Part shown: positions 3,646-27,271 of the stretch, in pieces
Numbering within the stretch: position 1 is the first letter of the stretch
Layout of the letters: every line of letters begins with the position of its first letter
NCBI GenBank assembly: GCA_937957915.1
Contig: CALGNZ010000036.1
Coordinates: forward strand, 1-64,000
Direction: 5' to 3'
DNA from: an uncultured Granulosicoccaceae bacterium
GTDB lineage: Bacteria > Pseudomonadota > Gammaproteobacteria > Granulosicoccales > Granulosicoccaceae
DNA length: 64,000 nt
Made by a program: the position numbers and the translations under genes
Notes under the pieces: generated by a model
Database searches by the model: none
Seen by the model: the letters and a program-made list of their open reading frames with translations, nothing else
What the model was told of the DNA's origin: nothing

Positions 3646-3846
3646 AGGACGCTCTCCACCTGTGCCGTCGCAGGCCGTGGACCTTGAACCAAACGGTTCA
3701 GGTGGGAGTAACCACTGCTGAATCAGGCTTCCCGCCGTAGCGGACATGCACAACAACAACAAATGATCGGCTCCCGAGGTGTCGAATTAGGCTCAAGGGA
3801 ATAACGGGCCTGCTAACGAACACTGCAGAGAACGTCCAAACTGGTA
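3646..3846 (-). ncRNA. ssrS: 6S RNA
   Basis: The stretch directly downstream of zapA on the minus strand matches the 6S RNA pattern, as in enterics. The 5' arm GGACGTTCTCTGC (3837-3825) pairs with the 3' arm GGAGAGCGTCC (3658-3648). Between them lie GTTCG-x4-CAGGCCC, CCCTTGAGCC, GCATGTCCGC, and a 3' hairpin CCTGAACC...GGTTCAAGG, all at the positions of the E. coli elements. 6S RNA mimics an open promoter and sequesters sigma-70 RNA polymerase in stationary phase. Ends are approximate. In E. coli ygfA follows; here convergent ilvA does. Recognition is by eye, without a covariance-model search. Confidence 0.87.
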
Positions 3847-14928: not shown

Positions 14929-16236
14929 GTGGTCAAAGTAACGCCTACACAACGCCTCGATGCAATGAGCGACAAATTCGAACAGCGAGTTACCCGTATC
15001 TGCCAGATCCTGCATCTGGCGTCACAGCGGACCAAGGTGTTAACGCACCTGCGCTGGGACGGATCAGTGCGGGAGCGTTTTTTGGCTGATCGTGCCAGTG
15101 CATTGCCGGAGGTGACCTACCCGGACTATGACATGAGTCCGGTGCTTGATCTGGTTGATGAGGCTCGACGACTGATGCAAACCAGTGCTGTAGACGACTG
15201 GCTGGAGCGTCAGGCACAGGCGATAGCAGTTGCGGCCCGAATGTTGAGATCATGTGGTACCGCGGATTTTTTTCATTGCTCCAGCGAACTGTATGGTGCC
15301 CCGGGTGATCTTTTGCTGGATCAATCGAGCACATCGTTGACGCTGGCCAGCGATTTTAACGAAATATTGCGACAACTGGATGGCTTCAACGAACACCTGC
15401 TTGAGCAGCAGGAAGTCAGCAGTACAAAGCTGGCAGAGCGACTTACCGTTGCCGTCAACGATATGTTTGGCGCAGATGCGCCAGAGATACAACTCGTCGA
15501 TGAACTGTCCGCCAATGCACTTGCCGGGCGTGAGAGAATCCGCATTCGTCGTGACGCTGAGTTTAACGACAAAGATGTCGCGCAGTTGATCCACCATGAG
15601 GCGGGTATTCATGTGGCAACATCACTGAATGGTCTGTATCAAACCAGTTTGCCGATACTTGGCTCCAGTCATGCGGGTACAACTCGAACCCAGGAGGGGC
15701 TTGCAGTATTTGCAGAGTTTATTACCGGCTCGATGGATTTAGATCGTTTGCGTCGTCTTTGTGACCGGACTATCGCCATTCAAATGGCAGTAGATGGCGC
15801 GGATTTTATTGAAGTGTATGAATACTTCCTGGAGCGTTGCCATTCCGAGGAGCAGGCGTTTGAAAATACGAGGCGGGTTTTTAGAGGTGGCGTTCTTTCA
15901 GGCGGCGCGCCGTTTACGAAAGATATTGTCTATCTTGACGGACTCGTCAGAGTACACAATTTTTTAAGGGCTCTGGTCGCGAACGGGCGTGCAGACTGCA
16001 TGTTGTTACTGTTTTGCGGCAAGCTTGATCTTGAGGATATTCCAGTGTTGAGCGAATTGGCGGAACTTGGATTGTGCAAGCCGCCGCGCTATCTTCCGGA
16101 GTGGGCCAGCGACATGCGTTTTCTGTTAAGTTATCTGGCTTACTCGGGTTTTCTAAATACAATTGATCAACAACGGGTGAGTACTCACTACGAAAATTTG
16201 CTTCGTAGCGCACCTCTTGTTGAAATGGGCGGTTGA
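14929..16236 (+). CDS. QEGLA-motif putative zinc metallopeptidase (DUF1704/TIGR02421)
   Basis: The 435-residue product has HHEAGIHVAT, a compact HExxxH zinc site (H223, E224, H228), and the name-giving QEGLA at 255-259. The family is annotated in bacteria as flavohemoglobin-expression-modulating QEGLA protein; the eukaryotic relatives with the same HExxxH core are the MATCAP tubulin tyrosine carboxypeptidases. A carboxypeptidase role for the bacterial protein is inference; the substrate is unknown. GTG 14929 is the upstream start; ATG 14965 (MSDKFEQRV) is equally plausible. It lies 20 nt upstream of the SNF2 helicase gene on the same strand, so the two may be cotranscribed. Confidence 0.8.
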   Translation: MVKVTPTQRLDAMSDKFEQRVTRICQILHLASQRTKVLTHLRWDGSVRERFLADRASALPEVTYPDYDMSPVLDLVDEARRLMQTSAVDDWLERQAQAIAVAARMLRSCGTADFFHCSSELYGAPGDLLLDQSSTSLTLASDFNEILRQLDGFNEHLLEQQEVSSTKLAERLTVAVNDMFGADAPEIQLVDELSANALAGRERIRIRRDAEFNDKDVAQLIHHEAGIHVATSLNGLYQTSLPILGSSHAGTTRTQEGLAVFAEFITGSMDLDRLRRLCDRTIAIQMAVDGADFIEVYEYFLERCHSEEQAFENTRRVFRGGVLSGGAPFTKDIVYLDGLVRVHNFLRALVANGRADCMLLLFCGKLDLEDIPVLSELAELGLCKPPRYLPEWASDMRFLLSYLAYSGFLNTIDQQRVSTHYENLLRSAPLVEMGG

Positions 16237-16255: not shown

Positions 16256-19200
16256 ATGAACATAGCGAATAACGCTACTGAAACGTTGGATACAGGAATC
16301 AACCCGTTCGGCAGGGCGGCGATACTGCGTGCCTGTAGCATCGAGTTTGACGAGAGCACCTGGTCCAGAGCCGAGGAATATGCGGCAGAAGGCCGTGTAT
16401 CGCAACTGGATTTTAACGGCAACAACACACTCACAGCTTTAGTTGCCGGCGGCGCCGATCAACCTTACGAGCTGCGTGTGGTGATTACCCGTGGTCGCGA
16501 GAATCTAAGTCTGCGCGGTATTTGTAGTTGTCCTGTCAGACTAAACTGTAAGCACGTTGGTGCAACGTTGCTGAGCTGGCTCGACAGCGAGGAAGATACT
16601 TCTGCCTCCGTTGATGCTATCGCGCTTTGGCACTCTGCATTGCAGAGCCAGCGCGAAAACGAAGAGGCACCCGTCAATGCCGAATCAGTGGTGGTGTTAT
16701 ATCGGTTGCGCCAAATACATGTGAAGCAGGATGTTCGCTATGAAGTCGCTGCTTATTCCGCACGCAAGTTGCGCAGCGGGGGGCTTGGCAAGTCCACTCC
16801 ATTATCGCTGGACCGGCGGCACTTCGATGCAACCGATTTGACCGGTCACGATGCGCGTATTTGCAACGCACTGATCGGTTTAAAAGACAGCTCGACCGGC
16901 ATGCACCTGTCTGGTGAGCATGGCTACATGGTATTTCGCTGGATGGTTGAGTCTGGCAATTGTTATTACGAGGCGTTCGATAGTGAACCTCTGCGGTTCG
17001 ACATTAATCGGCCCATCGAAGCCGACTGGATCAGCCCCGATGATAATCGTCGACAGCTCAAACTGAAGCTTGCCAGCAGCGATGAAGCATTTGTTTCACT
17101 GCCAACCGATCCGCCGTGGTACATAGTGCCGAAGACGGCCCAGTGCGGGGTTATCGAAACCGATGTACCGCCAAGGTTTCTTGCCGGTGCGCCCTACTTG
17201 CCTGCAATCTCCGAGGCAGATGCCATGCGCGTTTCGGAGTTGATGGTTGAATCACTGGACTCGGTTGATTTACCACTCCCGGCAGCGATTGATATTCGCC
17301 AGATAGCCGGTGTTGATCCTCGCGGTGTTGTGGTGCTGACGGCCAGCAAAGATGGTGATGGCACGCATCGGTATGCCGAAATCATGGTTGACTATGACGG
17401 TGCACGCCTGCCGCACATGATGGCAATCAGTGACGAAAAAGAATTTCTGCACAAACAGTCTGATGGTCAGTTTGTTCGCGTTGTTCGATCGACCGAAGCG
17501 GAACTCGCCCTGATTAATGAAATGACAGGTTCCAATTTGCCAGACTGGGCTTCCATGCGTCAGTTGCGTGGAGCGATTCAGTTGCATGTAGAGGCCAAAT
17601 CATCAAAGGATATGGTGCTGTGGCAGGACCTGATCGACGGCAAGTTGTCAGACCTGCGGCGTAACGGCTGGATCATCGAACGTACACCGGAGTTTGAATT
17701 TCGGGTAATACGATCCAGAGAGTGGCAGATGAATATTGATCACTCACTGGAAAACCACTGGTTCGATCTGGATCTGAATTTTTTGATCGACGGTCAGCCA
17801 ATTGCGCTGATACCGGTGCTGGCAAGTTTTATCGAACGGGTTGGGCCAGATTTACCACGCTACCTCGAAGACCCTGATGCGTCGGCCACGGTATGGCTCG
17901 ATGAAGAAACACTGATTGAGTTTCCAATAAAACACATCAGGCCCTTGCTTGAAGTGCTCGTCGAGTTGCACGAACACGATAACGGCAAGTTGCGATTCTC
18001 CGATTTACAATCAACGGTTATTAACGATATCGCTGATGGTATCAACGCTGTGGGTGAGGTGAATCTCGAATGGGAAGTGCCAGCAAGACTCGCGCAGATT
18101 CTTGACCGAATCCGTTCTTTTGACGGTATCGAAGACGTCGGTATACCTGACGCACTGACAGCAGAGTTACGTGATTATCAGCGCGATGGTTTGAACTGGC
18201 TGCAGTTTCTGCGTGAGTTTGGCTTCAGTGGAATACTTGCTGATGACATGGGGCTTGGAAAAACCGTGCAGGCGCTTGCGACTGTACTGGTGGAAAAGCA
18301 AACCGGCCGATCGACTTCTCCTTCTCTGGTAGTAGCCCCCACAAGTCTTATGGGTAACTGGCGGCGAGAAGCAGAAAAATTTGCACCTAATCTCAAGGTC
18401 GCGGTGCTGCACGGCGCGGAAAGAAGCGAGCACTTTGACAAGCTGGATGAATACGATCTGCTGCTGACGACTTATGCCTTGTTATCGCGAGATCTGGAGA
18501 TCCACCAGGGGCGGGGTTATCACTACCTGATACTCGATGAGGCACAGGCGATAAAAAATCCGACAACCAAACAGGCCAAGGCTGTGTGTCAGGTTAATGC
18601 CAAACACAAACTGTGTCTGACGGGTACGCCGGTTGAAAATCACCTCGGTGAAGTGTGGTCGCAGTTTCGCTTTTTGATGCCCGGATTTTTTGGCGAGCAA
18701 AAGCACTTTAATCAAACTTTTCGCAATCCGATAGAAAAGGGTGCGGATAATCTCGCAGCAACTGCACTGACAAAAAGACTGAAGCCATTCATTCTAAGAC
18801 GCAGTAAAGATGCGGTAGCGTCAGAGTTGCCGTCTAAGACCGAAATCATTCATCGCGTATCTCTATACCCGGAACAAGCAGTATTGTACGAAGGCATTCG
18901 TGCTGCTATGGAGTCGAGAGTACGACGTGCACTGGCTGAGAGTGGACTTGGTCAAAGCCATATCACGGTATTAGATGCGCTGTTGCGATTGCGTCAGACC
19001 TGTCTGGATCCGCGTTTGGTAAAAATGAGTCAGGCACGTGCGACCACACAGTCTGCCAAGCTCGACTCGTTGATGGAGATGTTGCCAAATTTTGTCGAAG
19101 AGGGTCGTCGAGTGTTGCTGTTTTCACAGTTTACCGAGATGCTTTCACTGATTGAAACTGAAATTCAGCGCGCCGGAATCAGCTATACAAAGCTCACCGG

Positions 19201-19558
19201 CAAAACCAAAAAACGCGATGAAGCCGTTGATGAATTTCAGTCGGGCAATGTATCGGTATTTTTAATCTCATTGAAGGCTGGTGGCACTGGTCTCAATCTG
19301 ACACAGGCCGATACCGTCATCCTGTACGATCCCTGGTGGAACCCTGCGGTGGAAAATCAGGCGATTGACCGGGCGCATCGAATTGGTCAGGACAAGCCGG
19401 TGTTTGTTTATCGATTGATCACGGAACAAACGGTTGAAGAGAAGATTATAGAATTGCAGGAGCGCAAGAAGCAGTTTGCAGATATCGTGATTGAAAATCG
19501 CGAGGAAAATTTAAAGGCGCTGGCGGCAGACGACATTCTGGAATTGTTCTCATCCTGA
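16256..19558 (+). CDS. SWIM zinc-finger SNF2-family helicase
   Basis: This 1100-residue SNF2/Swi2 ATPase probably translocates on duplex DNA and remodels protein-DNA complexes. In order it has a SWIM zinc finger (C90-x-C92-x5-C98-x-H100), a long middle region of unknown fold (about 110-630), the SNF2 N-lobe starting DYQRDGLNWLQFL with Walker A DDMGLGKT (about 662-669) and DEAQ (about 760), and the C-lobe with LLFSQFTEMLSLIE, LISLKAGGTGLNLT, DPWWNPAVENQAIDRAHRIGQ and the closing VEEKI. SWIM-SNF2 proteins are common in bacteria and are sometimes found beside repair or conflict genes. The primase/ligase cluster starts 319 bp downstream on the same strand. Confidence 0.92.
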   Translation: MNIANNATETLDTGINPFGRAAILRACSIEFDESTWSRAEEYAAEGRVSQLDFNGNNTLTALVAGGADQPYELRVVITRGRENLSLRGICSCPVRLNCKHVGATLLSWLDSEEDTSASVDAIALWHSALQSQRENEEAPVNAESVVVLYRLRQIHVKQDVRYEVAAYSARKLRSGGLGKSTPLSLDRRHFDATDLTGHDARICNALIGLKDSSTGMHLSGEHGYMVFRWMVESGNCYYEAFDSEPLRFDINRPIEADWISPDDNRRQLKLKLASSDEAFVSLPTDPPWYIVPKTAQCGVIETDVPPRFLAGAPYLPAISEADAMRVSELMVESLDSVDLPLPAAIDIRQIAGVDPRGVVVLTASKDGDGTHRYAEIMVDYDGARLPHMMAISDEKEFLHKQSDGQFVRVVRSTEAELALINEMTGSNLPDWASMRQLRGAIQLHVEAKSSKDMVLWQDLIDGKLSDLRRNGWIIERTPEFEFRVIRSREWQMNIDHSLENHWFDLDLNFLIDGQPIALIPVLASFIERVGPDLPRYLEDPDASATVWLDEETLIEFPIKHIRPLLEVLVELHEHDNGKLRFSDLQSTVINDIADGINAVGEVNLEWEVPARLAQILDRIRSFDGIEDVGIPDALTAELRDYQRDGLNWLQFLREFGFSGILADDMGLGKTVQALATVLVEKQTGRSTSPSLVVAPTSLMGNWRREAEKFAPNLKVAVLHGAERSEHFDKLDEYDLLLTTYALLSRDLEIHQGRGYHYLILDEAQAIKNPTTKQAKAVCQVNAKHKLCLTGTPVENHLGEVWSQFRFLMPGFFGEQKHFNQTFRNPIEKGADNLAATALTKRLKPFILRRSKDAVASELPSKTEIIHRVSLYPEQAVLYEGIRAAMESRVRRALAESGLGQSHITVLDALLRLRQTCLDPRLVKMSQARATTQSAKLDSLMEMLPNFVEEGRRVLLFSQFTEMLSLIETEIQRAGISYTKLTGKTKKRDEAVDEFQSGNVSVFLISLKAGGTGLNLTQADTVILYDPWWNPAVENQAIDRAHRIGQDKPVFVYRLITEQTVEEKIIELQERKKQFADIVIENREENLKALAADDILELFSS

Positions 19559-19877: not shown

Positions 19878-21176
19878 ATGGCCAGCCAACATGAAATTGT
19901 TGCCGAGGAATGGAAAGAGCGCTCACGCGAGCTTGCCCAGTGGGCGATGGAAAAGCTGGTTAATCGCAAAGACGTGTGGGGTCAATATGGTGCATTGACA
20001 CCAGGTGAACAAAAAAAGCTCGGGCGCACCTACAAGGCAATGACACTACCCGTAGCGAGTAAGCGCGGGCCGGATATGGTAACGCTGGACAAACTCACCA
20101 GACACTTTGCCAGTGCGCATCATCAGCGGCCACAAATAATTGGCCTGCACGCGAAGAGTGCTGAAAACACCAGTCGCTGGCTGGGCATTGACATTGATAT
20201 GCACGATGATGCCAAAGCGGATGCTGAGGAGCATGCCAGGCGTAATCTGGTCGGTGCTATTAATTGGTGGAGAAAGTTGCAGGCAATGGGGTATGACCCC
20301 TTATTGTTTGACTCCAATAATAACGGCGGCTATCACTTGTGGGTGTTGTTTGATGAGCCGGCACCTACCGAACACGTTTTTGCATTTGCGTGGTCACTGG
20401 TTTCTACCTGGCAGGAAAACAATCTCAGTGAAGAACCCGAAACGTTTCCAAAGAAATTGCAAAAAGATAAGCTGGGTGCCTGGTTTCGTTTACCAGGATT
20501 GCACCATACACGTGACCACTACGCCCGTGTCTGGAGCGGTGATGAATGGCTCGATGATCCCTGGTTATCGGGTCATGCGGCGATTAATGCGATGGTGCAG
20601 TGTGTTGGTGGTCCGCCGCCTCCGGAATCAAGTGCACCCGAGGATCATAGCCGCACCACAATTCGTAGCCCCGAAGCACGCGGTCTGGCGTCAAACAATA
20701 CCGTAAAAACGAAGGCTGTGGCAGGTAGCGCGCCGACATCAACAGCAGGCTCCAGGCGCGCGGTCGACCGTAAAAGAAATTTTAAGCGCACCGGCAAGGC
20801 GACGGTTTGTATCGATCTGGATGGCGTGCTGGCTCAGAAACATGGAAGCGCGCATTCCGCCACAATTGGTGATCCTATTGACGGGGCTGTTGAATTTACG
20901 CACGCGATATCAGCTTTTGCCACGATTACTATTTTGACTTCCAGGCTTGCTGTTAAGAAAAACTCGCGTAAACGCGATGTAACTTCCATTGCGAAAAGTA
21001 TAGAGGATTGGCTTGATGATCATGGCTTTGCCTATGATGAAGTATATATCGGTCAGGGTAAGCCACCGGCTGCGGCCTACGTTGATGACCGCGGTGTTTC
21101 CTGTCGTCCGCAACAGGAAGGTCTCGACGCGTTTGCCCAATCAATGCAATTTATACAGATGCTGTGTGAACAGTGA
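19878..21176 (+). CDS. Archaeo-eukaryotic primase-type (TOTE-like AEP) domain fused to HAD phosphatase domain
   Basis: The 432-residue protein has two enzymatic domains. Residues about 85-235 look like an archaeo-eukaryotic primase/polymerase of the type seen in TOTE conflict systems: WLGIDIDMHDD gives the catalytic D105-x-D107, DSNNNGGYHLWVLF the sugar/phosphate-binding His (H153), then ETFPKKLQKDKLGAWFRLPGLHH. A basic Ser/Thr/Ala linker (about 245-305) leads to a HAD domain: CIDLDGV (D313, D315), ILTSR (T354), IGQGKPPAA (K395) and YVDDR (D403, D404), the layout of polynucleotide-phosphatase-like HADs. The inferred role is gap filling or priming plus 3'-phosphate removal. It is the first gene of a five-gene same-strand run. 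The ribosome binding site is weak. Confidence 0.72.
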   Translation: MASQHEIVAEEWKERSRELAQWAMEKLVNRKDVWGQYGALTPGEQKKLGRTYKAMTLPVASKRGPDMVTLDKLTRHFASAHHQRPQIIGLHAKSAENTSRWLGIDIDMHDDAKADAEEHARRNLVGAINWWRKLQAMGYDPLLFDSNNNGGYHLWVLFDEPAPTEHVFAFAWSLVSTWQENNLSEEPETFPKKLQKDKLGAWFRLPGLHHTRDHYARVWSGDEWLDDPWLSGHAAINAMVQCVGGPPPPESSAPEDHSRTTIRSPEARGLASNNTVKTKAVAGSAPTSTAGSRRAVDRKRNFKRTGKATVCIDLDGVLAQKHGSAHSATIGDPIDGAVEFTHAISAFATITILTSRLAVKKNSRKRDVTSIAKSIEDWLDDHGFAYDEVYIGQGKPPAAAYVDDRGVSCRPQQEGLDAFAQSMQFIQMLCEQ

Positions 21177-21210
21177 AAGATGAAAACCGCAGGTATTGTG
21201 AGGTGAATCT

Positions 21211-21828
21211 ATGCCCAGAGCGTTAAAATTTACATTTAACGATACCGAGTTCGAATGCGAAATGAACAAGGTTGACCGTAACAAGCTGTATGGGTCGGTC
21301 AGTGTTGAAACCTTTGATGTAGACGGTAATCGCTGTGAACTGGCAACACTGGCGAATGATGGTAAAACACTGATACCGCATGGTGGTACTGCATTCGCGT
21401 ATATAAACAAGGATGGTTTATGGGTGGAACGGTCGGAGTTGCAACCAGTGAGCCTCGAAGGGGAAAGACTGGAAGTGCTCCCGTCGAGCTTTGATCAAGT
21501 TATCAAACTTGGCAACACTGCAACCGTTGACGAGTTTCTCGATCACAGTGTCCGACTTTGCTATCAACTTGACTATGATGATGAAGTAATTGCGCCAGAG
21601 CTAATAGACGCCATGCAGAAAGGTCGGATATTCCGCTTTGATTTTCTGTATCGCGATGGCATTACCGCTGATCCGGCGTTTCTAATGGGCGGTAGCGCGG
21701 GCGAGTTATGGATGTTGGTGGCCAAGCCCGCCAGCGTTGATTTTGTCGGGCTTGATCAGGCTGCAGTCACTATTGCAGTCGAGGGCGATGATGAAGAAAG
21801 TGATGAGTTTGATTTTGAAATGATGTAG
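21211..21828 (+). CDS. Unrecognised acidic-tailed protein in primase/ligase cluster
   Basis: The product has 205 residues, begins MPRALKFTFNDTEFECEMNK, and appears beta-rich and soluble. The last 15 residues are strongly acidic (EGDDEESDEFDFEMM). No signal peptide, membrane segment or known motif is seen, and I do not recognise the family. A good ribosome binding site (GAGGTG, 21200-21205) supports the ATG. It lies 34 nt after the primase gene and 39 nt before the lysine-rich SAM protein. The acidic tail could contact that neighbour's basic tails or mimic DNA; both are guesses. Confidence 0.75.
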   Translation: MPRALKFTFNDTEFECEMNKVDRNKLYGSVSVETFDVDGNRCELATLANDGKTLIPHGGTAFAYINKDGLWVERSELQPVSLEGERLEVLPSSFDQVIKLGNTATVDEFLDHSVRLCYQLDYDDEVIAPELIDAMQKGRIFRFDFLYRDGITADPAFLMGGSAGELWMLVAKPASVDFVGLDQAAVTIAVEGDDEESDEFDFEMM

Positions 21829-21867
21829 TGGACTTTTGAGCAGACTCGGGCAAAAAAGAATAGATAA

Positions 21868-23424
21868 ATGCCAAATATAAATATTACCGATAGCCGCAAA
21901 CGCGATGCAGTGGTCAAGGCCGAGAATACCGGGGTGCACGAGGAAGTGCGTTACGTGGATTCCGAAGGTAGTGTTGCTTCAACACGGAAAGTGCTGAAAG
22001 CTACTGTCGCGCATGATTTTGACACCCTGAATTTGCAGTTCGGCGAGGATCCACAAAAGTTGGGGATGGCGCTTGTTGACGGTGATCCGGAAGTAGACAT
22101 GGAGAGATGTGGGGTATACCTGTGGGGAGTATCTAAAGTCTATGTCACTTCTGATGACGGAATTGTTTACCGGATCGAGCAGACTGAAAAAGTGTGGGAT
22201 GCAGACGGTGAACTCAAAGAGACACGACCCAGAAGCCGGGCAGAGGCCAATGTCGATAGTGAAGTACCCTTGACATGGACTGGCAGAAAAATAAAGAAAA
22301 CTGATGCCATTCGTCGATTTGTTTTTACATCCAAACTGCAAATCGTGCATGTAAACGGGCTGACCTACGATTTCCTCTATGGCATGGCCAAAGAGCTCGA
22401 CAACGAAAGCAGCTTGATGATGGTTGGCGGTGGAAGTGGGGGTAAAGACCCGCTGGTATTTCGCCGTGGCAGTGTGCCCTACCGTGGGTTTCTGGAAGGT
22501 CGGGTTGAGGGTGAGCAATATATATTGTTATTACATCTGTCGAATATGGAGTTGAAAGTACCTGAAGCCTATAAAAACAACACTGAAACCGGGCAAAAGT
22601 CTGACACGGGTGACAAAGCCGGACAATCTCTGACTGAGGTTGAAAAATCGGTGGTGGACAAGGAGCCTGCGTCAGCTGATGAAGTAACGACCGAATCTTC
22701 AAAGATGCGGCAAACAAAAGTACCCGAATCGAAACAAATCAAGAGCAAAAAGTCGGTTGCGAAAAAGACACCCCGGTCGACGAAAATTGATGATAAGCCA
22801 GACGAGGGTAAGGAAAAGTCCGGTCCATCGAAAAAAGTTAAGAAGAAGGTGGCAAAGAAATCGGCAGGAAAAATAGAGAAAACTACGGGTACGGATTCAT
22901 CACATAGTGAAAAGTCTGATGTCGGGATAACTCCTGAAGATAGTTCGGAATCCGGAACAGCGGATGCTGAGGTTAGGATGGTGGCCGAGCCCCGGGCTTC
23001 GATCGACCAGGCTTCGATCGACCTAGCCACAGTCGACCAAACCACGGTCAATTTCGACGATCTTGGTGTCTGGCTAAAAAGTATTCGTATGGGCAAGTAC
23101 CTCAAGCTGTTTATTGATAATGAAATTGATGTTGATGTGTTGTCAGAGCTAAGCGACGACGATCTCAGGGAGTTGGAAATTCCTCTGGGGTCGCGACGGC
23201 GTTTGTTAAAGGCGATAGCGGCCGCTGACAGCCTTCGCGCCGAAGTGGCAATGGCTGTTAGTGATATATCGCGTGCTGTGAACGACAAAAAGCAACCTTC
23301 CCAGTCTGCAAAACAGGCGTCTAAAAAGACGGCGAAAAAATCTGTGAAAAAGAAAAAGACAGCAAAGAAAAAAGCCGTTAAGAAAAAAGCGACAGAAAAA
23401 AGAGCTGGCAAGCAACCTGAGTAG
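21868..23424 (+). CDS. SAM-domain protein with histone H1-like lysine-rich tails
   Basis: The 518-residue product has three parts. Residues 1 to about 232 form an unrecognised beta-rich globular domain. Residues about 240-375 are a disordered Lys/Ser/Glu-rich linker with KSKKSVAKK- and KKVKKKVAKK-type patches. Residues about 398-455 (VWLKSIRMGKYLKLFIDNEI...LRELEIPLGSRRRLLKAI) form a sterile alpha motif, a protein-interaction/oligomerisation fold rare in bacteria. The last 45 residues are almost pure Lys/Ala/Thr, like histone H1 or AlgP tails. Degenerate 5-residue repeats (ASIDQ ASIDL ATVDQ TTVNF; 22998-23057) precede the SAM domain. Likely role: a DNA-binding scaffold that gathers the neighbouring enzymes, replacing Ku or a histone-like protein; this is inference. 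Confidence 0.7.
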   Translation: MPNINITDSRKRDAVVKAENTGVHEEVRYVDSEGSVASTRKVLKATVAHDFDTLNLQFGEDPQKLGMALVDGDPEVDMERCGVYLWGVSKVYVTSDDGIVYRIEQTEKVWDADGELKETRPRSRAEANVDSEVPLTWTGRKIKKTDAIRRFVFTSKLQIVHVNGLTYDFLYGMAKELDNESSLMMVGGGSGGKDPLVFRRGSVPYRGFLEGRVEGEQYILLLHLSNMELKVPEAYKNNTETGQKSDTGDKAGQSLTEVEKSVVDKEPASADEVTTESSKMRQTKVPESKQIKSKKSVAKKTPRSTKIDDKPDEGKEKSGPSKKVKKKVAKKSAGKIEKTTGTDSSHSEKSDVGITPEDSSESGTADAEVRMVAEPRASIDQASIDLATVDQTTVNFDDLGVWLKSIRMGKYLKLFIDNEIDVDVLSELSDDDLRELEIPLGSRRRLLKAIAAADSLRAEVAMAVSDISRAVNDKKQPSQSAKQASKKTAKKSVKKKKTAKKKAVKKKATEKRAGKQPE

Positions 23425-23471
23425 CCGGGTTCGGAGCAATGTCACCGAGTATCTGGACACCGGAGAGGTGA

Positions 23472-24938
23472 ATGATGAAGCTAATAAATACCGAGTTATT
23501 GAAACAGCGGGTTGATGACTATTGCACCGGTAAAGCCGATGCATTGCAGGATCAGTCACTGTTGCAGCGTGTGAGAATGCGGCGTCGACAATTAGGTCAA
23601 ATGACCATGGCGCTTGATCGTGAGCTCGCGCGGGTGAAAATACCAGCGGGTGACTTTCATATTAGTCGCAAGGTCGACGGCGAGTTTACCTGCCTTGTCT
23701 ATAACGAAGGTGAAGTGTTTACCATCAACCCGGGTGGCACTATTCGTATTGGCGCGCCAATGCATGAAGAGTCAAAAAAGATACTCGATCAATGTGGGGT
23801 AAGGTACGCTCTGTTGGGCGGCGAGCTGTATGTGAGGCGGGCAGATGATCGGAGGCCCAGAGTGCATGATGTTGTCAGGGTTGCACGTGCGCCAGAATCC
23901 AGTGAGGATGTAGCGAGCTTATGCCTGGCGTTATTTAATATTTACGAATGGAATGACGAACAGAGAAGCGGGCAGTATGCCGATCGCTTCAACCGCCTGG
24001 TTGAATTGTTTGGTGAAGGCGACCGAGTGCATCCGGTGGAAACCATCATTGGCGACGGCAGTAAATCTGTATTGTCGCAGTTCAAAAAGTGGGTTGATGA
24101 GGAGGGTGCCGAGGGTGTGGTCGCACGAAGCGATACTGCCGGTGTATTTAAGATTAAGCCCCGTCATACCATCGATCTTGCCGCTATTGGCTTCACCGAA
24201 GGTCTGGATGATCGCAGTGGGCTGTTACATGATGTGATGCTGGCTGTAATCAGGGGAGACGGAACTTATCACATAATAGGGCGGGTTGGTGGCGGTTTTT
24301 CGGATGATCAGAGAGCCTCCATTCTAAAGCAGCTTGAAGAGCTTGTTGTTGACAGTGAATACGCGGAAGTGAATTCAGATCGCGTTGCGTACCGTATGAT
24401 AGAGCCAGGTCTGGTTTTTGAGATATCTTGTCTGGACATCATTGCCAATACTTCCAGAGGCAATACCATCGACAAAATGGTGCTCGAATGGAATGCTGAA
24501 AAAAGTTTGTGGGAAGGCGTCAGACGTTTACCGTTGTGCAGTGTTATTTCACCACAGTTCCTGCGCATTCGCGATGACAAAAGCGCTAATGCAGATGATG
24601 TCAGATTTGCTCAGTTAACGGATATCGTTAACATACCGTCGGCCAACGTAGTAAGTGAAGAACTGAAATTGCCCGCCAGTTCACTGATTAAGCGGGCAGT
24701 TGCCACTAAGGAGTTGCGTGGGGCGATGATGGTTCGCAAGCTTATGATGTGGAAAACCAATAAGAGTGAGCAATCCAGAGACTACCCGGAGTATGTTCTG
24801 CATTTGACCGACTATAGTCCAAACCGAAAGGATCCGCTAAAACATGAAGTTCGAGTCAGTAGTTCTGAGCAGCAGGTTCTCGACTACTGGAAACAGTGGG
24901 AGAAAAAGTATTTTGTATCTGGCTGGTCGACTCAGTAA
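23472..24938 (+). CDS. ATP-dependent polynucleotide (DNA) ligase-like protein
   Basis: The nucleotidyltransferase motifs of ATP-dependent ligases are in order: motif I RKVDGEF with the AMP-accepting K67, motif III GGELYV (E118), IIIa ALFNIYEW, IV EGVVAR (E214) and V FKIKP (K227, K229), followed by an OB-fold-like segment (about 255-345) and an extra C-terminal region (about 350-488) that I do not recognise. The position after KxDG is not the usual Arg. The length of 488 is short for LigD/LigB and longer than LigC. It probably seals nicks; an RNA ligase cannot be excluded. GGAGAGGTGA just upstream is the best ribosome binding site in the cluster. ATG 23472 or 23475 could start it. Confidence 0.8.
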   Translation: MMKLINTELLKQRVDDYCTGKADALQDQSLLQRVRMRRRQLGQMTMALDRELARVKIPAGDFHISRKVDGEFTCLVYNEGEVFTINPGGTIRIGAPMHEESKKILDQCGVRYALLGGELYVRRADDRRPRVHDVVRVARAPESSEDVASLCLALFNIYEWNDEQRSGQYADRFNRLVELFGEGDRVHPVETIIGDGSKSVLSQFKKWVDEEGAEGVVARSDTAGVFKIKPRHTIDLAAIGFTEGLDDRSGLLHDVMLAVIRGDGTYHIIGRVGGGFSDDQRASILKQLEELVVDSEYAEVNSDRVAYRMIEPGLVFEISCLDIIANTSRGNTIDKMVLEWNAEKSLWEGVRRLPLCSVISPQFLRIRDDKSANADDVRFAQLTDIVNIPSANVVSEELKLPASSLIKRAVATKELRGAMMVRKLMMWKTNKSEQSRDYPEYVLHLTDYSPNRKDPLKHEVRVSSSEQQVLDYWKQWEKKYFVSGWSTQ

Positions 24939-24986
24939 CCCGATTCAGTACGGTCGGACAGAATCCGCTTTGGTTGATAATAACTA

Positions 24987-25706
24987 ATGCGAATTCTGAG
25001 TTGGAATATTTTGCATGGCGGCGGTACACGTTTCGAGGATATCGTAGATGTCCTAAAGCGATATGATGCCGATGTCGTGACACTTCAGGAATACCGTCAT
25101 AGTAAAAATCATCCGCACTTTCAATCAGCATTGGCGGATATGGGGTACCACTCTATAATCGCACCGGCAACACAGAGCGCTCGGGAAAATAGTGTGTTGC
25201 TGGCAAGCAGGTTTGAGATGACAGGCGACGGGTTTCCGCTCGGGAGTGCAGCACCTTATCGGGCTATACAGGCCAGAATTTCAGTAGAGAATGAAGGCAG
25301 TATTAATGTGGTATGCGTGCATTTTCCTCACAAAAAAGCGCAGGTGCCATTGTTTACAGCGTTGCTGGAGCTGCCGGATAACTGGCTCACCGAAAAGTCG
25401 ATTTTGCTGGGTGACTTCAATTGCGGTATTCCTTTCATAGACTCTGAAACCAAAAGTTTTTATGCCACGCATCTGTTTCAGCAATTGTTGAGTGATGGCT
25501 GGATTGACTCGTGGCGTAGCCGACATAACAATTTACGAGAGTTCACGTGGTACAGCACGCAGCGATCGAATGGTTTTAGATATGACCATGCACTTCTATC
25601 GAATGCGCTGGATCAGTCCGTAGCCAAAATTGGCTACGATCATGATGTTCGGATCAGGAAAATTTCAGATCATTCACTAATGGTGCTTGATCTGAATTTT
25701 TCGTGA
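24987..25706 (+). CDS. Endonuclease/exonuclease/phosphatase (ExoIII/APE-like) family nuclease
   Basis: The product is a 239-residue EEP-fold phosphodiesterase. The catalytic landmarks are the N-terminal LSWNILHGGG (Asn), TLQEYRH (metal-binding Glu), LLGDFNCG (D-x-N), YDHALLS and the closing KISDHSLMVLDL (Asp-His pair). Relatives include exonuclease III/APE1, sphingomyelinases and DNase I-like enzymes; the short length and absence of a signal peptide suggest an intracellular nuclease. As last gene of the primase-phosphatase-ligase run, 48 nt after the ligase, an end-trimming or abasic-site role is likely. It converges on the SH3b gene with a 23-bp gap. Confidence 0.8.
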   Translation: MRILSWNILHGGGTRFEDIVDVLKRYDADVVTLQEYRHSKNHPHFQSALADMGYHSIIAPATQSARENSVLLASRFEMTGDGFPLGSAAPYRAIQARISVENEGSINVVCVHFPHKKAQVPLFTALLELPDNWLTEKSILLGDFNCGIPFIDSETKSFYATHLFQQLLSDGWIDSWRSRHNNLREFTWYSTQRSNGFRYDHALLSNALDQSVAKIGYDHDVRIRKISDHSLMVLDLNFS

Positions 25707-25729: not shown

Positions 25730-26950
25730 TTACAGGGGTTGTAATAGTGAGCTGTGCATAAAACCCAGGGGTTCTGGCTTTGAAGAGGTGCTGTCAGTAG
25801 AGATTTCGAACCATTCGCCGATTGTACTAATTACGGCAACGTGTTTGTCTGCTGCCAGGGATGTGATGATAGCGCCATTACTTGCCGGCGTTTCCCTGAC
25901 AATGCTCCATTGTTTTTTGACCTTCCACTGGCTGGCATTTTCAACAATGTTTATACCAGTTTGTGTCGCCGATGCGCTGACTGCAGGTATCTCCCGGTAG
26001 CTGGAATTCTCGCCAGCGGCGTACCTGTCTTCATTATCAGTCTGTGTGATTGTTCTAAGGCCAGGGGTGGTTTTGATCGACGGGCTAGACTGTGAGGAGT
26101 TATTCCCGGTCTCTGATTGAGTCGTATCATCGCAGTCTGCAATGTTGCTGCAACCACGAAGACTGGCAAGGTTAAAATACAGTGTTTGGTGGCTTTTCGA
26201 TCCTTGATATCCATCCATTTGCACGATTTCATGAGGCGTCATTGGTGGTTTTCCGGCAATAAAGGTTATTGCCGCGAAACCGATGGCAAAGACCACAGCT
26301 GTAATACCGAGTCCGATTTTGCCCATAGTTTCGGTGAAACGATTTCTCGTATAGTGTTGAGTATCATTGAAGTCTTCAGCAAACAGGACACCTTGAGGCT
26401 CGTGGTAGTAGTCGTAAATGTCAGGATCGCGGAGCACCTCGTCGGTATGGCGTTCGCTGTGGTATAAATCATCTGTCTGATGGTCGTGTCCGGTATGGTG
26501 CCGGTCTGTTTCAAATAGTGCTTCATCGTAGCGCTGACCATCACCCTGCACCTGGTAACCGGTCTCCCGGTAATTATGCTCTTTGTAGGGGAGCTCTTTG
26601 TTGTGGGGCTCTTTGTCGCGGGGCTCTTCGTAAGAGCGCTCTTCGTAATGACGCTCCTGGTGAAGATGTTCTTCGTAAAGCGGCTCCTGGAAAGCGCTCT
26701 CTTCCTGATAGAGGTCTTCGTTGTAACGTTCTTCGTTTAGCAGATCTGAGTCGATGTATCTTTCGCCAAACGGCACATCCTGGTGATCAGTCGGGAGATG
26801 ATCTTCATAGGAAATGTGTCTGGCGAAGATCTCCCTGGTGCGGCCGTCTTGTTGGTCGTCACCGTGGTTATCGCCATTATAGTAATCTTCGTGGTGATTG
26901 TGGTACACGCTGCTAACCCCTGAAAGTGCACTGCTGGCTTCTTCTCCCAT
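25730..26950 (-). CDS. Membrane-anchored SH3b-domain protein with acidic pentapeptide repeats
   Basis: The product has 406 residues from ATG 26950 (MGEEASSALSG). The N-terminal 200 residues are hydrophilic, rich in Glu, His, Tyr and Asp, and contain about eleven imperfect five-residue repeats (pattern x-Tyr/His-x-Glu-x). One membrane segment follows (IGLGITAVVFAIGFAAITFIAG), then a Ser/Thr-rich stretch and a C-terminal bacterial SH3 domain (WSIVRETPASNGAIITSL..GEWFEIS). Orientation is presumably repeats in the cytoplasm and SH3b in the periplasm, where such domains bind peptidoglycan or partners. I do not recognise the full architecture. An upstream in-frame extension of 48 codons, Cys/His-rich, seems non-coding. 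Confidence 0.65.
   Translation of the reverse strand: MGEEASSALSGVSSVYHNHHEDYYNGDNHGDDQQDGRTREIFARHISYEDHLPTDHQDVPFGERYIDSDLLNEERYNEDLYQEESAFQEPLYEEHLHQERHYEERSYEEPRDKEPHNKELPYKEHNYRETGYQVQGDGQRYDEALFETDRHHTGHDHQTDDLYHSERHTDEVLRDPDIYDYYHEPQGVLFAEDFNDTQHYTRNRFTETMGKIGLGITAVVFAIGFAAITFIAGKPPMTPHEIVQMDGYQGSKSHQTLYFNLASLRGCSNIADCDDTTQSETGNNSSQSSPSIKTTPGLRTITQTDNEDRYAAGENSSYREIPAVSASATQTGINIVENASQWKVKKQWSIVRETPASNGAIITSLAADKHVAVISTIGEWFEISTDSTSSKPEPLGFMHSSLLQPL
26564..26730 (-). repeat. 15-bp tandem repeat inside the SH3b gene, about 11 degenerate copies
   Basis: On the plus strand GCTCTTTGTNGNGGG / GCTCTTCGTAANNNN units recur every 15 bp, encoding the five-residue repeats such as LYEEH, LHQER, HYEER and SYEEP. 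Several adjacent copies are nearly identical in DNA, which points to expansion by slippage or unequal exchange rather than ancient protein repeats. Boundaries are approximate. Confidence 0.75.
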
Positions 26951-27271
26951 AATGACAATCCAGGTTACATGGAGTAACCGTGGGTGCGGTTGGTGATAAA
27001 TCCGCTTGTCGGTATGGTTAGCCGAGCCATTTTTTTCTTCGCCAGTGGCGGCATCGCAGCAACAAGTCGCTGCGTGATATCCGTCACAACTCATTGTCCA
27101 GCAGATCTATTTTGTATTGTGCGATTGAAGACTATAGTTGCCGACCCGGTATGGAACCCGGGTGATACCGTGCTTTCTGTCAACAAACGTCTGTGGACTG
27201 CGTGGGGTGTATCGGCATTGAGCGCCGATACCCGAGGGCTGGTTCCCGTTTTTTTGCGGTGTGGCTATTTT
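26951..27271 (-). other. Intergenic region between SH3b and M42 peptidase genes
   Basis: These 321 bp have no supported gene. A hairpin (TATCGGC, 7-nt loop, GCCGATA; 27210-27230) is followed on the plus strand by GGG/CCC and a run of seven T (about 27249-27255). It could end minus-strand peptidase transcription poorly, or plus-strand transcription well, but no plus-strand gene precedes it closely. Confidence 0.35.

Follow-up and report, generated by a model that had tools for sequence, protein, structure and literature searches.

The products of a five-gene operon from an uncultured Granulosicoccaceae bacterium probably make up a self-contained system for non-homologous end joining (NHEJ), centered on a two-gene and probably heterodimeric bacterial Ku. 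The operon occupies positions 19,878 to 25,706 of the 64,000-nucleotide stretch of DNA that we analyzed (the window; contig CALGNZ010000036.1 of assembly GCA_937957915.1). Its products are, in order, an AEP-HAD protein, two proteins with a predicted Ku fold that we call KuA and KuB, an ATP-dependent DNA ligase and an EEP-family nuclease. The NHEJ reading is supported because separate Foldseek searches of the Protein Data Bank (PDB) with KuA and with KuB each rank Ku first, and because the best NCBIfam model for the ligase, though scoring under its cut-off, is an NHEJ ligase domain. Further support comes from the preserved gene order, from the agreement between the distance matrices of the five proteins and from the absence of canonical Ku from 34 carrier genomes. 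Gene order, conservation, protein families, catalytic residues and the predicted Ku fold of both proteins are the directly supported elements of this proposal.

KuA and KuB have a predicted Ku fold

KuA (protein 2; 21211–21828, plus strand) is encoded by an open reading frame (ORF) of 205 amino acids (aa), and KuB (protein 3; 21868–23424, plus strand) by an ORF of 518 aa. We used AF2 to fold all of KuA and residues 1–238 of KuB from alignments of 23 and 28 sequences, respectively, which combine the window copies with those of the named loci described below, partial copies excluded. The mean predicted local distance difference test (pLDDT) score was 72.6 for KuA and 65.9 for KuB residues 1–238. 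The Foldseek-PDB match ranked first was the Ku core of B. subtilis for KuA (9vnq_A, probability 1.00, E 6.9e-6) and Ku of M. tuberculosis for the KuB core (9i91_A, probability 1.00, E 5.3e-6). For each protein the best 50 matches were all entries for Ku or Ku-containing NHEJ complexes, with chain lengths fitting Ku, and 26 matches for KuA and 54 for KuB reached E ≤ 1e-3. KuA had only two matches at this threshold in the viral structure library BFVD, both named Ku, and the next match scored 0.063. By Foldseek, on models of moderate confidence, KuA and the N-terminal domain of KuB (aa 1–238; 21868–22581, plus strand) are both predicted to have the core fold of the Ku superfamily.

Sequence comparison did not detect this relationship. 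Pfam, including the Ku model PF02735, returned nothing for KuA and just SAM_1 for KuB. Neither protein has a PF02735 match or significant profile similarity to the Ku superfamily. Comparison of the KuA and KuB profiles with one another was also not significant (E 0.026, probability 1.9%). A forced alignment placed GY..DG.WV of KuA near KGYE..G.YV of Ku, but was not significant and was given no weight. The initial annotation had described the operon as lacking a recognizable Ku and had suggested that the SAM- and Lys-rich protein, KuB, serves as a scaffold. Both descriptions now need revision: proteins 2 and 3 are each predicted by Foldseek to be Ku-fold proteins, although sequence methods are blind to this, and a SAM domain is found in just 9 of 29 KuB sequences.

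The five genes are collinear and conserved

The AEP-HAD gene (19878–21176, 432-aa ORF), KuA, KuB, the ligase gene (protein 4; 23472–24938, 488-aa ORF) and the nuclease gene (protein 5; 24987–25706, 239-aa ORF) all lie on the plus strand, separated by gaps of 34, 39, 47 and 48 bp. The ORF coordinates thus bear out the earlier description of five same-strand genes with regular short gaps of 34–48 bp. A scan of the operon found 7 promoter-like sites, fewer than the 9.0 obtained from shuffled sequences, which favors neither separate promoters nor a single transcript.

We examined 57 genomes, including the source genome; 35 family relatives were searched in addition to the source genome, giving 36 family genomes. 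A ligase match was found in 14 of the 57, and 13, the source included, carry the operon ligase. The 14th match was weak (8e-5) and came from a genome of another family with canonical Ku on the same contig. All five genes were found in the same order in 11 of the 12 ligase-carrying family relatives, with the AEP gene running off the contig in one of these, and in the 12th relative the genes were split over two contigs. A profile for the N-terminal region of protein 3 matched 15 of the 57 genomes, namely the 13 ligase carriers and two fragmented genomes without a ligase match. Gene order was maintained at roughly 40–80% protein identity. The distance matrices of the five proteins agreed in all ten pairs (r 0.75–0.97; window and 16 loci), with none of 2000 label shuffles reaching any of these values. 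Chance is a poor explanation of the operon because of this kept order and agreement. Between the loci L032 and L033, dN was 0.04–0.10, and dS was above 1.5 or not computable (saturated). The five genes are therefore real, collinear and conserved. Co-conservation, on which the initial annotation had staked its proposal, was found both in the 11 of 12 relatives and in carriers from other phyla.

A single pattern-based scan of a named genome collection provided a wider set of 34 loci. Thirteen of these coincide with records of the 12 family relatives already counted, and the rest represent 21 further carrier genomes. The carriers are labeled as Granulosicoccaceae, Thiotrichaceae, other Gammaproteobacteria, Neomegalonema (Alphaproteobacteria), one Cyanobacteria-labeled metagenome-assembled genome (MAG) and Verrucomicrobia. 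Five genes in order on one strand were present at 17 of the 34 loci; about 7 kb separates protein 3 from the ligase in L049, and the nuclease match in L054 comes in pieces. The remaining 17 are loci that are short or lie at contig ends, Thiotrichaceae in which the genes are scattered, one contig-split genome and Verrucomicrobia. Whole-genome searches of the 21 further carriers, which covered AEP-HAD, KuA and the nuclease, detected AEP-HAD in 17 genomes, KuA in 19 and, at E ≤ 1e-50, the specific nuclease in 14; operon genes that were not adjacent were mostly still present elsewhere in the same genome. This pattern of gene presence suggests that KuA, KuB and the ligase form the core, followed by AEP-HAD, with the nuclease being the most dispensable component.

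A distant clade consists of L123 (4977–11645) and L124 (3887–9501), in which KuA, KuB and the ligase are found with an upstream gene for a double-AAA ATPase of about 800 aa. No AEP-HAD or nuclease match was found within 18 kb (L123) and 17 kb (L124) around these sets. They could represent another type of system that shares the KuA-KuB-ligase core. A 373-aa gene without an assigned family lies downstream of the set in L123, and KuB is broken by stops in L124. On wide sampling the system is rare. It was found in 1 of 398 genomes in the phylum sample, which is the source genome itself, and in 3 of 387 genomes from the phylum to which a verrucomicrobial carrier belongs, that carrier being among the three.

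Canonical Ku (PF02735) was not found in the 34 carrier genomes, which comprise the source genome, its 12 relatives and the 21 further carriers (0/21). The same model matched the B. subtilis control and 88 of the 398 genomes in the phylum sample.

The predicted processing and sealing enzymes retain their catalytic residues

Protein 1 contains a predicted AEP primase-polymerase domain (about aa 70–212), which matched the Pfam AEP-TOTE model of conflict systems at 4.1e-7 with 30.3 bits against a cut-off of 27. Its profile also matched PDB chains 7nqf and 7nqd at 5.6e-4; these are named there "TPR_REGION domain-containing protein", and we take them to be CRISPR-associated Prim-Pols. The second domain (about aa 304–410) is a putative HAD phosphatase with a profile match to the HAD-like PDB entry 1xpj (2.9e-7). 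PHROG matches to the HAD part included a polynucleotide kinase family (3e-6) and, with a better score (8.4e-11), a family annotated as phosphoheptose isomerase. The AEP DxD (D105, D107) and H153 are invariant in 13 of 13 aligned copies of protein 1, as are D313/D315, T354, K395 and D403/D404 of the HAD domain.

The ligase matched Pfam DNA_ligase_A_C (1.3e-10), which covers the OB domain, and DNA_ligase_A_M (3.7e-7), which covers the nucleotidyltransferase domain. Its best NCBIfam model was NHEJ_ligase_lig (9.8e-15), with 54.5 bits, far under the cut-off of 227.75. Residues K67-x-D69-G70, E214-G215, K227, K229 and R367-x-D369-K370 are invariant in 12 of 12 ligases. The other two ATP-ligase matches in the source genome are of different types, one with an N-terminal ligase domain (PF04675) and one with an OB_2 domain. 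Protein 5 is a putative ExoIII/Xth-like EEP nuclease, and as such a candidate apurinic/apyrimidinic (AP) endonuclease or 3' end cleaner. It matched Pfam Exo_endo_phos (4.8e-17), NCBIfam xth (3.3e-17, under cut-off) and the ExoIII PDB chains 2jc4 and 6fk4 (3e-10), and N7, E35, D143/N145 and D228/H229 are invariant in 13 of 13 nucleases. The motifs that had been read directly from the DNA (AEP D-x-D, HAD, ligase and EEP) are thus present and invariant in aligned relatives (13/13, 12/12 and 13/13). Pfam and profile families agree with the AEP-HAD, ATP ligase and EEP nuclease assignments, and for proteins 1 and 4 it is sequence family, without fold models of their own, that upholds the AEP and ligase identities. 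The proposal of an end-processing and sealing set on separate chains is likewise supported by these families together with co-conservation.

Terminal extensions of KuA, KuB and the ligase

All 23 aligned KuA sequences close with an acidic stretch ending in [DS]Fx[MV][LM], and because of this uniform ending the C-terminal peptide is likely to be a linear recruitment motif. The acidic-hydrophobic end recalls the C-terminal DVDDLLDM of eukaryotic Ku80, which binds DNA-PKcs according to PMC8549938; the likeness is likely to be convergent.

The KuB tail (22582–23424, plus strand) consists of a Lys-rich linker, a SAM domain (aa 394–451; SAM_1, 2e-13) and a Lys/Ala-rich C-terminus. Among 29 KuB sequences, the nine with a SAM domain are from Granulosicoccaceae, seven have a SAM-less, Lys-rich tail of 59–140 aa, and in 13 the tail does not exceed 17 aa. 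The SAM domain and the Lys-rich tail are therefore lineage-specific additions. In L057 (3107–4969) and L054 (9215–11470) KuB is nearly tailless and the ligase carries a Lys/Ala/Pro-rich extension, C-terminal in L057 and N-terminal in L054. This arrangement is as expected if KuB and the ligase share one complex. The window ligase has a strongly conserved C-terminal extension of about 118 aa past R-x-D-K, which has no family match and may be a Ku-binding part. A 173-aa gene, which by eye resembles an ACT-domain regulator, lies between KuB and the ligase in L052 (5613–6134) and L053 (9398–9919).

Proposed end-joining mechanism

From this gene set we infer heterodimerization, DNA-end binding, recruitment, an order of action and all of the activities that follow. 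KuA and KuB would most likely form one heterodimeric ring that threads onto broken DNA ends. The Lys-rich/SAM tail of KuB would strengthen the hold on DNA or promote self-association, and KuA would recruit a partner through its acidic C-terminal peptide. The AEP domain would extend the ends or fill in gaps. In LigD it is the PE domain that removes 3'-phosphates, and in eukaryotes it is PNKP; here, to judge from its family and intact catalytic residues, the HAD domain may take on this role. By the same reasoning, the EEP nuclease would clear other 3' blocks or cut abasic sites, and the ATP ligase would presumably seal the joined ends.

Evidence against end joining and alternative explanations

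Several observations weigh against this mechanism. The Ku-fold assignment depends on two AF2 models with mean pLDDT of 72.6 and 65.9, made without an unrelated-protein control, and the middle regions of both models are of low confidence. Among the best 50 Foldseek matches, TM-scores by query were 0.34–0.46 and the root-mean-square deviation was about 9–14 Å over the alignment. Comparison of hidden Markov models by hhalign against 4 and 34 canonical Ku sequences, in local and forced-full modes, gave probabilities below 1% and was not significant, and searches of PDB chain sequences with the KuA and KuB profiles found no Ku. The specific nuclease was found in none of five verrucomicrobial genomes and AEP-HAD was not found in 4 of the 21 further carriers, all of these being MAGs of unstated completeness. 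Finally, carriers are not alone in lacking canonical Ku: it was found in none of the 36 family genomes searched, whether or not they carry the operon. This absence is consistent with replacement by KuA-KuB, but does not show replacement because family members without the system likewise lack canonical Ku.

The presence of an ExoIII-like nuclease, an AEP and a ligase in one operon would also fit a form of excision or gap repair that involves no joining of double-strand breaks, in which the nuclease opens abasic sites, the AEP fills and the ligase seals. Mycobacterial LigC and Prim-PolC take part in base excision repair, as described in PMC5663958. We consider this explanation improbable: the ligase keeps both predicted Ku-fold partners even in L123 and L124, KuA is present in 19 of 21 carriers, and the specific nuclease is the part most often missing (present in 14 of 21). 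It is less likely still that the genes form an RNA repair operon that combines HAD end healing with an RNA ligase and an EEP nuclease. The ligase does have a weak RNA_ligase match (2.4e-4, under the Pfam cut-off), but its OB domain scores above cut-off as DNA_ligase_A_C, its R-x-D-K, a DNA-ligase-like motif, is invariant, and its partners are predicted Ku folds.

The operon might instead be an anti-phage or inter-element conflict module, in which Ku-like proteins sense the free ends of invading DNA and joining is secondary. The AEP-TOTE score and the patchy distribution over phyla are in keeping with such a role, but we regard it as unlikely. TOTE conflict systems come with conflict helicase and nuclease genes. 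No helicase is encoded in the operon, and the upstream SNF2 gene lies beside the operon at just one of the 34 loci, with some contigs ending earlier. The sole PADLOC match among the five proteins, between protein 1 and a DRT model, was very weak (E 0.014). Annotation of the flanks covered eight of the most recurrent genes, the remainder being clustered only, and these eight are housekeeping-like by Pfam: an ABC transporter pair, MTTB, CobS, CobT, EF-G, UPF0093 and an M42 peptidase. PADLOC matches to these genes were of ATPase type only, the strongest being mad3 (7.9e-29) for an ABC ATPase. Searches for relatives, in which neither KuA nor the nuclease was a query, covered viral contigs for AEP-HAD, KuB and the ligase, plasmids for KuB and the ligase, and phages for AEP-HAD and the ligase. 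They found none, except that AEP-HAD matched two phage records, both of one Synechococcus phage and through the HAD part only. We rejected a mobile-element origin because the searched parts had no relatives in viral contigs, plasmids or phages beyond this HAD-only match. The initial annotation had left the choice between a repair pathway and a defense or conflict module open; housekeeping-like flanks, the sparse PADLOC matches and the lack of mobile relatives of the parts searched favor a chromosomal repair role, and there is little positive evidence for defense.

Neighboring genes in the window

Upstream of the operon, a gene at 16256–19558 (plus strand) encodes a 1100-aa SNF2-family helicase whose best PADLOC match is DpdE. 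We rejected it as a sixth operon part, as it lies about 320 bp away and is beside the operon at one of 34 loci (L036), with some contigs ending earlier. A MATCAP-type gene (14929–16236) lies further upstream and, together with the SNF2 gene, adjoins the operon only here and in L036 among the 34 named loci. Directly downstream and convergent, 25730–27094 (minus strand) encodes a protein of 454 aa, one half of which is of low complexity and rich in His, Tyr and Glu; its bacterial SH3 match is weak and under cut-off. A 6S RNA (85.9 bits) is located at 3649–3834 on the minus strand.

Comparison with known end-joining systems

Bacterial NHEJ is described in PMC12784961 as a Ku homodimer acting with LigD. 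With the Ku-LigD systems of B. subtilis and mycobacteria, the operon shares a predicted Ku fold, an AEP polymerase, an ATP ligase and a predicted end-healing phosphatase. It differs in having two adjoining, divergent predicted Ku-fold genes, invisible to sequence search, in place of the single homodimeric Ku. Its enzymes are on separate chains, its AEP scores as TOTE type, a HAD domain replaces the PE domain, and an EEP nuclease is added. In a search confined to the five operon proteins, the LigD polymerase and PE domains had no match, AEP-TOTE and HAD being present instead. We do not place the operon in the Ku-LigD system because several defining features of that system are lacking.

Two distinct Ku proteins and a separate ligase are also features of eukaryotic Ku70/Ku80 NHEJ with PNKP, and PNKP is a HAD-type phosphatase comparable to the HAD domain of the operon. 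The N-terminal vWA domain of Ku70/80 had no match in KuA (205 aa) or in KuB, which begins with the core, and both are core-sized in this respect. Having more than one Ku gene is shared with bacteria such as Sinorhizobium, Streptomyces and Agrobacterium. PMC5124664 reports multiple Ku genes in some bacteria and speculates on heterodimers in Streptomyces; it refers to the proteins as Ku orthologues or homologues, whereas the Ku model finds neither KuA nor KuB. Mycobacterial LigC with Prim-PolC resembles the operon in pairing an AEP with a stand-alone ATP ligase, but the operon adds two predicted Ku-fold partners, a HAD domain and an EEP nuclease. Among the matches listed in open-licence PMC literature, we found no description of the operon or of a sequence-cryptic, two-gene bacterial Ku. 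Read as NHEJ, the operon is a variant outside the Ku-LigD system that is new to the literature searched.

A broader proposal, which we judge about as likely as not, is that the operon defines a separate branch of end joining. Such a branch would have an obligate bacterial KuA-KuB heterodimer beyond the reach of sequence search, a recruiting peptide on KuA and a eukaryote-like division of labor between a two-subunit Ku, a HAD 3'-phosphatase, a polymerase, a stand-alone ligase and an AP nuclease, all in genomes that Ku-profile surveys score as NHEJ-negative. A survey of 5,973 bacterial genomes (PMC7719229) used profiles from P. aeruginosa Ku and LigD matches, and carriers of the operon would be counted as NHEJ-negative by Ku sequence-profile surveys. 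A 2025 history of Ku (PMC11936186) places the duplication behind Ku70/80 early in eukaryotic evolution. If our interpretation is true, a two-subunit Ku would not be a eukaryotic peculiarity, bacteria would have one more end-joining set, and the compact two-gene Ku would be a small model in which to study what is gained from a heterodimer.

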